The notes beneath the pieces were generated by a model. That model had not been told where the DNA came from. It saw only the letters and a list, made by a program, of their open reading frames with translations, and did not search any database. The position numbers and the translations under genes were made by a program. A stretch of DNA of 52,845 nucleotides from Sedimenticola sp. (lineage in GTDB: Bacteria; Pseudomonadota; Gammaproteobacteria; Chromatiales; Chromatiaceae), in assembly GCA_026983675.1 (NCBI GenBank), contig JALSTP010000117.1, positions 1 through 52,845 on the forward strand, written 5' to 3'. This document shows, piece after piece, positions 14,638 through 52,845 of this stretch. Within the stretch, counting starts at the first letter, position 1. Every line of letters starts with the position of its first letter.

Positions 14638-15313
14638 AGCTTATATTCCTCTGGTTGATATGCACGAGAGTGGGAGGAGCGAAGCTCGGGTTTACACCTC
14701 ATCAATACCCCCCCGGACGGAAAAATTATAAGCGCCGTACCCCCTGCAATTGAAAATATTTGTTGCACAAACGCTCCGCGTGTGCCCTCCTCCGGAGGCG
14801 CAAAGCGTAAATTGGCATGCGCCTGTCTTACCGATTAACCTGCCAACACTGTGTATCGTATTCAGCCGCGGCGGGCCGGTTCGCAGCAAGGCGCCCCATC
14901 GCCGCTGTAGCCACCCTGCAGCAAGATGGGGCAACGCAGTCTGCGGGCCGGCACGCCGCGGCCTGTCTTTGAATATCATAGGGTTAGGGGCTTCAGGCAG
15001 GCGCCGGACCCGCGCTCCGGCGCTCGACAAGGGAACGACCGTTGCCTGTGCACTGCGCCTTGTTCCGGCGCCTGGCCGAAGCCCGGAATGCGATGGACAG
15101 TGTTGCCGGGTTGATGGGTTTTGCATACATGACGGGGAAATCGAATCACGGCAGGAGGCCGTTCAGACATCCTGCCTCGGCAACGGCAGAGGAAGATCCG
15201 CCGCACCGGCCGCGCCCTTTACCTGTCATGCTTGCACAGGCTCCTGTATTATTTATTGTCCTATTATTGTTTGACAGGGGGCTTTCCTGGGTGCGCCCGT
15301 GGAGAAAACAATC
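14638..15313 (+). other. 676-base intergenic region
   Basis: No supported gene. It holds the upstream region of the HhH gene (14638-14830), a degenerate 280-bp TA-element (14835-15114), and about 200 bases before the DUF4197 gene. Open frames crossing it differ between element copies mainly by amino-acid-changing substitutions and are not credible genes. Confidence 0.7.
14835..15114 (+). mobile_element. TA-inserting miniature element, copy 1 (280 bp, degenerate ends)
   Basis: Full-length copy in the opposite orientation to copy 2 (23210-23489), with exactly the same length. The left end reads TTAACCTGCCAACACTGTGT and the right end ...GTGTTGCCGGGTTGA; both have drifted from the family consensus TTAACCCGGCAACA. 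The flanks are GA and TG rather than TA, which fits an older insertion. The core contains nested inverted repeats: GCCCCATC/GATGGGGC inside a GCCGG/CCGGC outer stem, then a second arm with GGCGCCGGA and TCCGGCGCC. A 7-bp direct repeat GCCGCGG at 14865 and 14955 bounds a 90-bp module that is absent from copies 3 to 5. Confidence 0.9.
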
Positions 15314-22920: not shown

Positions 22921-23045
22921 CGCCACGCCGGGTTAATACATCGATGATGAGGCGCGGCATGGCAGCGTCGCGCGCCTCCTGTCGCACCCATGCCTTTTGG
23001 ATCCCGGGCCTTGCCGGGATACGCGTTCCCATGGACATCCCAGCG

Positions 23046-23681
23046 TCATTCCGAAGTTCCGTGAGAATGGGCATGGGGGGGTGGCAGCGGCTTTCCCTCC
23101 AGGACCGCCCTCGCCGCCGCCAGGGGATCCGTTTCACTGGTGGCCACCACCTGCACCCCCCGGGACGCCATTCGCTGAACGAAGCCCGCCCCGCAGCTTG
23201 CGGTGATTATTAACCCGGCAACACTATATATCGCATTCAGGGCTTCAGGCAGGCGCCGGAACAAGGCGCAGTGCGCAGGCAAGGGTCGTTCCCTTGCCAA
23301 GCACTGGAACGCGGGTCCGGTGCCTGCCTGAAGCCCCTAACCCTATGATATTCAAAGACAGGCCGCGGCGTGCCGGCCCGCAGACTGCGTTGTCCCATCT
23401 TGCTGTAGGATGGCTACAGCGGCGATGGGCCGCCTTGCTGCGAACCGGCACGCCACGGCTGAATACGATATATAGTGTTGCCGGGTTAATAGCACATCGA
23501 CGGTATCGAGGGGATGTTCCACACCGTGAAAATTGTGCATGGCCATCGCCTTGGGGAGGTCCAGTCTGTCCGCCTCCCTGAGGTCAGCGGCCGTCTCCCC
23601 CTCGTAGATAAGAAAACGGCGGGTCTTGCCGGCGTGACCGGTCACGGTGCGGAAATTCTGGCTGCATATGGCAATCTTCAT
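23046..23681 (-). pseudogene. NifX/NifB-like iron-molybdenum cofactor-binding domain protein, interrupted by a TA-element
   Basis: The first 64 codons (MKIAICSQNFRTVTGHAGKT...HPLDTVDVL) and the last 53 (ITASCGAGFVQRMASRGVQVVAT...HSHGTSE) are the two halves of a dinitrogenase iron-molybdenum cofactor biosynthesis (NifB/NifX C-terminal-like) protein. Between them lies a 280-bp element at 23210-23489 flanked by TA. Deleting the element and one TA restores a continuous 117-residue frame with DVLITASCG across the junction. As it stands, translation would run 45 codons into the element and stop at 23352, losing the ITxxCGxG segment and the C-terminal histidine tail. Both halves are otherwise intact, so the disruption looks recent. 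Confidence 0.92.
23210..23489 (-). mobile_element. TA-inserting miniature element, copy 2 (280 bp, intact)
   Basis: The best-preserved long copy. Ends read TTAACCCGGCAACACTATAT and ATATAGTGTTGCCGGGTTAA, inverted repeats of about 31 bp, flanked on both sides by TA (23208-23209 and 23490-23491), consistent with target duplication. It is the reverse complement of copy 1 over its whole length. It carries no transposase and no plausible gene. It interrupts the NifX/NifB-like gene. Confidence 0.95.
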
Positions 23682-23835
23682 CGATCTTTTCTCCTTCACA
23701 TCTGCCCAGCGGCATGTGCGCCTCTATTGATGGAACGCCATGCTGTCAGTAATGCCCACAGAAATGCGTTGATATCCGTCAACGATTCACGGGCTTCCAT
23801 TGCGTCATACTGTGCCCGATTTTCGAGAAACGCCG

Positions 23836-25225: not shown

Positions 25226-25275
25226 TCAAAAAAAAGCCCCCTGCCCTTAACCAAGGCAGGGGGCTCCCCTTTTTT
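25226..25275 (-). terminator. Bidirectional-looking Rho-independent terminator
   Basis: AGCCCCCTGCC (25235-25245) and GGCAGGGGGCT (25255-25265) form an 11-bp stem with a nine-base loop, followed by a T run on both strands (TTTTTTTGAGG on minus, CCCCTTTTTT on plus). It lies downstream of the dihaem cytochrome gene, but an 81-bp TA-element now separates them. Confidence 0.88.
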
Positions 25276-25276
25276 A

Positions 25277-25357
25277 TTAACCCGGCAACAATATATATCG
25301 TATTCAGCCGTGGCCTGCCTGAAGTCCTGAATGCGATATATATTGTTGCCGGGTTAA
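25277..25357 (+). mobile_element. TA-inserting miniature element, copy 3 (81 bp, internally deleted)
   Basis: Almost nothing but the two 31-bp inverted repeats, which match each other with a single mismatch, joined by about 19 bases. It starts TTAACCCGGCAACAATATAT and ends with the reverse complement, flanked by TA at 25275-25276 and 25358-25359. In RNA it would form one long hairpin. It lies between the stop of the dihaem cytochrome gene (25391) and the terminator at 25226-25275, so it is probably transcribed. Confidence 0.95.
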
Positions 25358-25390
25358 TAAAGTCGAGTTTGAACCGTGATCAGTGGCCCG

Positions 25391-33899: not shown

Positions 33900-35288
33900 C
33901 TAGCCGCTGTACACCGCATGGGGCAGCCAGGTGGCCAGCGCCGGCCACAGAGCAAGCATGCCCAGCACCAGCAGCTGGATGAGGATGTAAGGTATCACGC
34001 CGCGGTAGATCTGCATCGTGGTCACCTCCTCCGGCGCCACCCCGCGCAGATAGAACAGGGCGAAGCCGAAGGGCGGGGTCAGAAACGAGGTTTGCAGATT
34101 GATGGCGATCATGATCCCAAGCCAGATGGGGTCCAGGCCCATGGCCAGCAGCACCGGCCCCACGATGGGCACCACCACGAATGTGATCTCGATGAAATCG
34201 AGGATGAACCCCAGCAGGAACATGACCAACATCACCACCACCATCGCCCCCACCACCCCGCCGGGCAAGTGAGTGAGCAGGTCCGCCACCAGATCGTCCC
34301 CACCGAACCCCCGGAACACCAGCGAGAAGAGCGCCGCGCCGATGAAGATCAAAAACACCATGCTGGTCACGCGGGTGGTGGAACGCATCACCTCGCGCAG
34401 GGTCTCCAGGCCGAACTGGCGCTGCGCCACCGCCAGCAGAATCGCACCCACAGCCCCCACCGACGCCGCTTCCGTGGGAGTTGCCAGCCCCCCCAGTATC
34501 GAACCCAGCACCGCCACGATCAGCAACAGCGGCGGTACCAACACGCGCAACACCCGGCCCCACAATGCCCGCAGATCCTCTTCCCGCGCCTCTGCGGGCA
34601 TCGCCGGCACCCGCTCAGGCCGCCACCACGCCACTCCCAGCAGGTAGATGATGTAGAAAGAGACCAGTAACAGGCCGGGGATGATGGCGCCGACAAACAG
34701 ATCACCGACGGAGACGGTCTCGGGTGAGAACACCCCCATGTCGAGTTGCGCCTGCTGATAGGCGGCGGAGAGCACGTCGCCCAGCAACACCAGGATGATG
34801 GACGGCGGGATGATCTGCCCCAGGGTGCCCGAGGCGCAGATGGTGCCGGTCGCTATCGCCGGGTCGTAATCGCGGCGCAGCATGGTGGGCAGCGACAGCA
34901 ACCCCATGGTCACCACCGTGGCACCGACGATACCGGTGGAGGCGGCCAGCAACATGCCCACCACCGTCACCGAGATCCCCAATCCCCCCCGAAGGGGACC
35001 GAAAAGGGCCGCCATGGTGTCGAGCAGGTTCTCCGCCACCCGCGAACGCTCCAACATGACCCCCATAAAGATGAACAGCGGCACCGCGATCAGCGTCTCA
35101 TTGGTCATGATGCCGTAGATGCGGTTGGGCAGCGCCTGCAGAAACGCATCGTCGAACAGCCCCCCCAGATCCCCCAGCCAGGCGAAGACCAGGGCCGTGC
35201 CGCCCAGGGAGAAGGCCACCGGGAAACCAAACAGCAGCACCCCACACACGGCGGCGAACATGATCAGCGGCATATACTCCGCCATCAC
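33900..35288 (-). CDS. dctM: TRAP transporter large permease (DctM/SiaM family)
   Basis: A 462-residue integral membrane protein with about 12 hydrophobic helices. Family signatures include FPVAFSLGGTALVFA, LIAVPLFIFMGVMLERS, SGTLGQIIPPSIILVLLGD and FGFALFYLRG near the end. With the small subunit it drives sodium- or proton-coupled uptake of organic acids. ATG and the stop of the small subunit overlap by four bases (ATGA). A periplasmic binding protein (DctP or TAXI type) is missing from the neighbourhood, so the substrate cannot be inferred. Its 3' end is three bases from the convergent chemoreceptor gene. Confidence 0.94.
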   Translation of the reverse strand: MMAEYMPLIMFAAVCGVLLFGFPVAFSLGGTALVFAWLGDLGGLFDDAFLQALPNRIYGIMTNETLIAVPLFIFMGVMLERSRVAENLLDTMAALFGPLRGGLGISVTVVGMLLAASTGIVGATVVTMGLLSLPTMLRRDYDPAIATGTICASGTLGQIIPPSIILVLLGDVLSAAYQQAQLDMGVFSPETVSVGDLFVGAIIPGLLLVSFYIIYLLGVAWWRPERVPAMPAEAREEDLRALWGRVLRVLVPPLLLIVAVLGSILGGLATPTEAASVGAVGAILLAVAQRQFGLETLREVMRSTTRVTSMVFLIFIGAALFSLVFRGFGGDDLVADLLTHLPGGVVGAMVVVMLVMFLLGFILDFIEITFVVVPIVGPVLLAMGLDPIWLGIMIAINLQTSFLTPPFGFALFYLRGVAPEEVTTMQIYRGVIPYILIQLLVLGMLALWPALATWLPHAVYSG

Positions 35289-41108: not shown

Positions 41109-41185
41109 GCGCCCGTAGCTCAGCTGGATAGAGTGTCGGCCTCCGGAGCCGAAGGTCACAGGTTCGAATCCTGTCGGGCGCGCCA
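41109..41185 (+). tRNA. tRNA-Arg (anticodon CCG)
   Basis: A 77-base tRNA including an encoded CCA end. The acceptor stem is GCGCCCG/CGGGCGC, the D loop AGCTGGATAGA, the anticodon stem-loop TCGGC-CTCCGGA-GCCGA with anticodon CCG, and the T loop GGTTCGAATCC. It reads CGG codons. No repeat of its 3' end or integrase gene lies nearby, so no sign of an integrated element. Confidence 0.97.
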
Positions 41186-41866: not shown

Positions 41867-41905
41867 CTTGGTTCGGCCTCTCGCGTCATCGGCCACAGTA
41901 TATTA

Positions 41906-41988
41906 TTAACCCGGCAACAATATATATCGCATTCAGCCGTGGCCTGTCTTTGAATATCATAGGGTGAGGGGCTTCAGGCCCGCGCCGA
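41906..41988 (+). mobile_element. TA-inserting miniature element, copy 4 (truncated right end)
   Basis: The left terminal repeat starts TTAACCCGGCAACAATATAT after TA at 41904-41905, followed by the short-form internal sequence (ATTCAGCCGTGGCCTGTCTT, GAATATCATAGGG, GGGGCTTCAGGC). Similarity fades at about 41988 and there is no right terminal repeat before the enoyl-CoA hydratase stop at 42019. It lies upstream of yaiI. Confidence 0.88.
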
Positions 41989-52657: not shown

Positions 52658-52801
52658 TTTGACCCTCTGTTTGATTCGATGCGGCATCATGCGCCTCACT
52701 GTTGCATCATCCATTGACCGGCAACCCGCGCTATGCACGTCGGGGAGCACCCTGGACGCCCTTGTGCAACAGGCCAATGATCGGAAGCGCAATAATTGCT
52801 A

Positions 52802-52845
52802 TTAACCCGGCAACACTATATATCGTATTCAGCCGTGGCCTGTCT
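52802..52845 (+). mobile_element. TA-inserting miniature element, copy 5 (cut by the window end)
   Basis: The left end TTAACCCGGCAACACTATAT follows TA at 52800-52801. The next bases, ATTCAGCCGTGGCCTGTCT, are the short-form internal sequence shared with copy 4. Only 44 bases are inside the window. Confidence 0.9.

Follow-up and report, generated by a model that had tools for sequence, protein, structure and literature searches.

In Sedimenticola sp. a gene of the Nitro_FeMo-Co (NifX-like) family is interrupted by a 280-bp element. Very probably this is a non-autonomous, TA-targeting element resembling the type II MITEs that has inserted once into the intact gene, with a DDE transposase acting in trans and a maintained hairpin module as the inferred parts of its biology. 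Insertion into the NifX-like gene is itself an ordinary event. The unusual feature of the family is that covarying bulged hairpins are kept across gammaproteobacterial families with a change in the ends that a transposase would read, and it is the conserved hairpin module that merits further attention. Positions given below without a locus refer to the window, i.e. the whole stretch of 52,845 nucleotides that was analyzed.

The interrupted NifX-like gene

The gene lies on the minus strand. Its 5′ part occupies positions 23490 to 23681, with the ATG at 23681 and 64 codons that include one copy of the TA, and its 3′ part, delimited by the open reading frame and by alignment with orthologs, comprises positions 23046 to 23207 and runs to the stop codon. 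A single TA is required at the empty site, and this is now found as two copies at 23208–23209 and 23490–23491. When positions 23210 to 23491 are deleted in silico (280 bp plus one TA) the result is an uninterrupted minus-strand reading frame of 117 amino acids (MKIAICSQNF...EHPLDTVDVLITASCGAGF...HSHGTSE), and both halves are free of further lesions. The product encoded at present (open reading frame 23352–23699) has 109 residues, of which 64 are native and 45 are encoded by the element. The restored frame of 117 residues, the lesion-free halves and the 109-residue product with its 45 element-encoded residues had been claimed in the first-pass annotation, and they are borne out by the analysis. 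The description of the gene as NifX/NifB-like was also right at the level of the family, as the rejoined protein matches Pfam Nitro_FeMo-Co (PF02579) with 31.3 bits against a cut-off of 26.3 (E = 2.6e-7), and a Pfam search with the present 109-residue product gave no match. Nitro_FeMo-Co (NifX-like) is a family-level assignment made from sequence, and the role of the gene in nitrogen fixation is putative. A lone 12-bp end sequence (GCCGGGTTAATA) is present at 22927–22938, directly past the stop codon of the neighboring gene, and might be the remnant of a deleted copy.

A related gene is present in 25 of 55 relatives. It had been suggested that orthologs be compared for an empty site, and we have done this at the protein level. 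Nineteen orthologs from other genera, 52–66% identical, could be aligned, and all 19 are uninterrupted through the junction and lack the element there. At the junction the sequence is DVLITASCGAGF here; the orthologs have DVLITAGCGDGF, DVLITGGCGEGF or something similar. Within its own genome the NifX-like gene exists only as its two halves. Given this, together with the 19 uninterrupted orthologs, the interrupted form is derived and the empty form is ancestral.

The insertion had also been called recent, and this stands in part. A useless gene decays, and as both halves of this one are intact the insertion is young on that scale. Yet this provides no date, and within the family the copy does not stand out as young. 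Compared with the consensus for its own genome it has differences at 8 alignment columns, against 1–8 in the other full-length copies and 24 and 27 in two old ones. By this comparison of sequences the copy in the NifX-like gene is an ordinary member of the recent set, and not its newest.

A second gene in the same genome is interrupted in the same way. The gene for an ammonium transporter (AmtB) carries a 280-bp copy (G000:C130:9586-9869; locus L009, 1501–1784), and taking out 280 bp and one TA restores its frame exactly, joining ...ALFQMTFAI to ITPALIVGGFAERMKF.... The restored protein covers positions 1–399 of the 399 of PF00909, with E = 1.8e-118. In two independent genes, therefore, the empty site must contain one TA and no more, and TA is found on both sides at 62 of the 69 complete copies that were read. 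Between them the NifX-like and AmtB genes establish, without experiment, both the boundaries of the element and the TA duplication, in agreement with what had been proposed for the single gene. We considered a TTAA target duplication of the kind made by piggyBac-like elements and rejected it, because with four duplicated bases the frame would be broken, and both genes call for just a single TA.

The exact restoration of two genes that are otherwise intact, by an element that folds strongly (z = -15.7), is also what would be expected if the element were precisely removed in life, either from DNA, in the manner of the TA-bounded internal eliminated sequences of ciliates, or from RNA, so that normal protein were still made. 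We regard this as very unlikely. The NifX-like and AmtB genes are the only two clear interruptions among 67 assessable element sites in the genome. Only these two were accepted as interrupted genes, on the basis of Pfam; the genome is GC-rich, and the other open frames spanning element sites were judged by eye to be spurious or to start just past the element. Most copies lie outside genes, and the element avoids long open frames, with 20 of 41 sites inside them compared with 948 of 1134 random TAs. The assembly has the filled site only, and young disruptions account for both genes.

Copies of the element lie at the ends of many contigs, and a repeat could in principle have been misjoined into the NifX-like gene during assembly. 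To this we give almost no credence, as a misjoin would not have left the two halves precisely in register around a single TA. The AmtB gene provides the same argument.

Insertion by transposition is the reading that we retain. A DDE transposase supplied in trans would recognize the ends of ~30 bp and join them to the target at a TA. In the NifX-like gene the insertion duplicated the TA and put the 45 foreign residues in place of the C-terminal half of a protein of 117 residues.

The element, its copies and its class

The element occupies positions 23210 to 23489, with ends TTAACCCGGCAACA...TGTTGCCGGGTTAA and TA on both sides. Counting the TAs, its terminal inverted repeats are 33 bp in length (23208–23240 on the plus strand and 23459–23491 on the minus strand), and are 97% complementary, with one mismatch. 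Between them are two internal inverted repeats. Hairpin A (23240–23336, plus strand) contains a 51-nt unit CAAGGCG...GGAACGC at 23262–23312, and hairpin B (23362–23459, minus strand) contains the unit CAAGGCG...CAACGC at 23437–23387. They are separated by a spacer region (23337–23361) that includes CCTAACCCTATGATATTCAAAGACAGG and corresponds to conserved alignment columns. The element lacks a conserved protein-coding gene, having only short spurious open reading frames.

There are six matches to a 23-bp end in the window, compared with none in 100 shuffled sequences, and this is far more than chance would give. The other copies are a shortened one of 81 bp with its TAs (25275–25359), an old diverged copy on the minus strand that is 91% identical and has mutated terminal TAs (14833–15116), a plus-strand copy truncated past its left part (41904–41979), and a plus-strand copy of which the contig, ending there, contains the left end only (52800–52845). 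In the assembly of 3.08 Mb the 14-bp end TTAACCCGGCAACA occurs 368 times allowing at most one mismatch, and the reversed pattern does not occur. The target is AT-rich around the TA, with a preference for A or G at −4, T or A at −3 and A or T at +1. Copies are chiefly 280, 331, 241 or 208 bp long, within a full range of 36–372 bp. In the shorter copies one hairpin, both hairpins or the hairpin tips are missing, and down to 36 bp they look like the products of hairpin loss. Minimal palindromes of ~33–40 bp that consist of the two ends only, flanked by TA, are present in several genomes (L110 2449–2484, L151 3072–3108, L152 2989–3025 and L209 980–1015). These are either deletion products or minimal mobile forms.

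An element under 500 bp, with terminal inverted repeats, a target duplication and a high copy number, has the features of a bacterial type II MITE, using the definition given in PMC10969869. Judged from its sequence it belongs with these elements in its length, its ends, its number of copies and its TA duplication, and its autonomous partner is putative. Two known MITEs were compared with it by their descriptions. According to the review PMC10969869, the Chunjie MITE of Geobacter uraniireducens is likewise short (178–235 bp), non-coding, inverted-ended and present in many copies, and one copy disrupts a phosphate-uptake gene cluster, so that gene disruption by such elements is known (PMC10969869); the section consulted includes no conserved hairpin pair common to several families. 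QMITE1 of Coxiella burnetii (300–400 bp, about 50 copies, with inverted ends of 21–28 nt) resembles our element, again by description, in its very long palindromic fold and in having size variants, which extend down to 39 bp (PMC5896051). It is reported to be unique to Coxiella, and its direct repeats are 2–4 bp of variable sequence (PMC5896051), whereas here there is a fixed TA.

The TA duplication and inverted ends are like those of the IS630/Tc1-mariner group, but a profile search of this genome, the assembly of which is fragmented at repeats, found no match to PF13358 (DDE_3, IS630-type). A search for PF13340 (DUF4096, IS5-type) also gave no match, and there was one weak match to PF01609 (DDE_Tnp_1) with two stops inside. 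Autonomous IS5-family elements such as ISPa67 have a TA-flanked end GGGTCTGTTG that is common to them and to the hairpin-unit element of Azotobacter but is unlike TTAACCCGGCAACA, and this genome is without DUF4096 and without a sound DDE_Tnp_1 gene. No autonomous insertion sequence sharing the end TTAACCCGGCAACA was found, the only similarity being that of the Azotobacter relative with its IS5-type end, and we found no transposase bounded on both sides by the ends of the present element. Among nine carrier genomes only two have IS630 genes. We also looked for an autonomous element between widely spaced ends, and rejected the candidate; a pair 2057 bp apart in L051 holds ordinary genes and no recognized transposase. 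In G331, a complete genome from another family that has the same type of end, two IS630-type transposase loci, one of them degraded, lie ~150 bp or less from such an end (L204 1078–2139 and L258 1127–1870). Neither is bounded on both sides by these ends. They are a possible trace of the helper, to be taken as a lead only.

Conserved hairpins and differing ends

The same 25 specified end bases are found in at least eight named metagenome-assembled genomes, labeled Chromatiales, Thiohalobacter, Thiotrichales and Gammaproteobacteria. Within the family of the host the exact 16-bp end is present in 9 of 210 genomes, and reaches hundreds of occurrences (266) in this genome only. The length of ~280 bp is kept to within a few bases in eleven genomes (this one and ten others), as is the recurring architecture of 33-bp inverted ends and two inverted hairpins. 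A search of phages and plasmids with a 284-bp query gave no match. In viral contigs the 26-bp end was absent, and the 16-bp end gave three isolated matches, none of which continues into an element.

We analyzed covariation using a consensus fold on 18 of the 280-bp elements. The fold has 104 pairs, and compensatory changes on both sides are seen at 57 of them. The fraction of paired cells is 95.6%; shuffling the partners lowers it to 83.6%, and sliding them by one, two or three columns to 44% or less. For the covariation score the values are 0.368 with the true partners and 0.141 with shuffled ones. The compensatory changes and the paired fraction lie above all shuffled and slid controls. Conserved bases are mainly in the bulges, tips and spacer. 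It is likely that there is selection on the fold, and copying from arm to arm within the hairpins could also contribute to the pairing. The count of G-T compared with A-C pairs (p = 0.02, on related sequences) points weakly to selection of A on one strand and of B on the other. As a sign of RNA, or of a single DNA strand, this bias was rejected as too weak and phylogenetically dependent.

Stems that covary strongly and bulges and tips that are conserved might also be expected of a regulatory or structured RNA gene that is selected for the host, its mobility being secondary. However, the two hairpin units are inverted with respect to each other, so that one transcript presents just one of them in the conserved sense, and copies occur in both orientations and with varying hairpin content. 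At the gathering score an Rfam search of the window returned only a tRNA (41109–41182) and no match to the element, and relaxing the threshold gave weak chance matches only. Moreover the ends are mostly absent from related genera. We consider a host RNA gene improbable. For the transposable element that we favor, the two inverted bulged hairpins may be maintained as a module able to fold when single-stranded, either as DNA at replication or as RNA, and would help the element to move or to persist.

The order of the 51-nt unit is CAAGGC, a stem, a GCAGG-like internal loop, a second stem and loop, CAAG, a stem and CAACGC. When a sample of 143 gammaproteobacterial genomes was searched with a covariance model of the unit, 34 of them, counting the present one, gave matches at E ≤ 1e-4, and many of these have 20 copies or more. 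Among the matches listed there are inverted pairs of the unit ~105 bp apart, for example G048:C24:34099-34148 (+) and 34204-34253 (−). Units in inverted pairs, with outer repeats that vary by genome, were also observed in many gammaproteobacterial families (L168–L182 and L122–L143). In different genomes the TA is followed by GTACTCC..., GTGTCCTGTC..., GTGGGCC... or GGGTCTGTTGACG..., and in most the unit-bearing element spans ~250–285 bp. The hairpin unit is present on plasmid pAcX50f of Azotobacter chroococcum, where the outer repeat resembles IS5-family ends such as that of ISPa67. Since the outer repeats differ between genomes around one unit, the same hairpin pair travels with different ends.

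We suggest tentatively, as a possibility that we would not favor at present, that the bulged hairpins form, as an inverted pair, a portable module under selection of its own. Elements would carry it across gammaproteobacterial families, with terminal repeats that might be exchanged to suit different transposases, IS5-type in Azotobacter and another here, and the module might be recognized as folded single strands by a host or transposition protein. If the hairpins are indeed kept while the ends change, the ends and the cargo of such elements would evolve separately, and small 'junk' repeats would carry a conserved folded module with a binding partner that could be found. A search of the literature brought up no relevant paper on the ends, on the hairpin motif or on the family. 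This is weak evidence of novelty, as subscription journals were mostly outside the reach of the search; the modular hairpin superfamily appears to be undescribed in the sources searched.

An apparent case of nesting was seen in G167 (L153 2832–3031), where an element with other ends (TA followed by GGGGGCGTTCTCAAT) and a hairpin of the same class lies at a TA inside a minimal copy.
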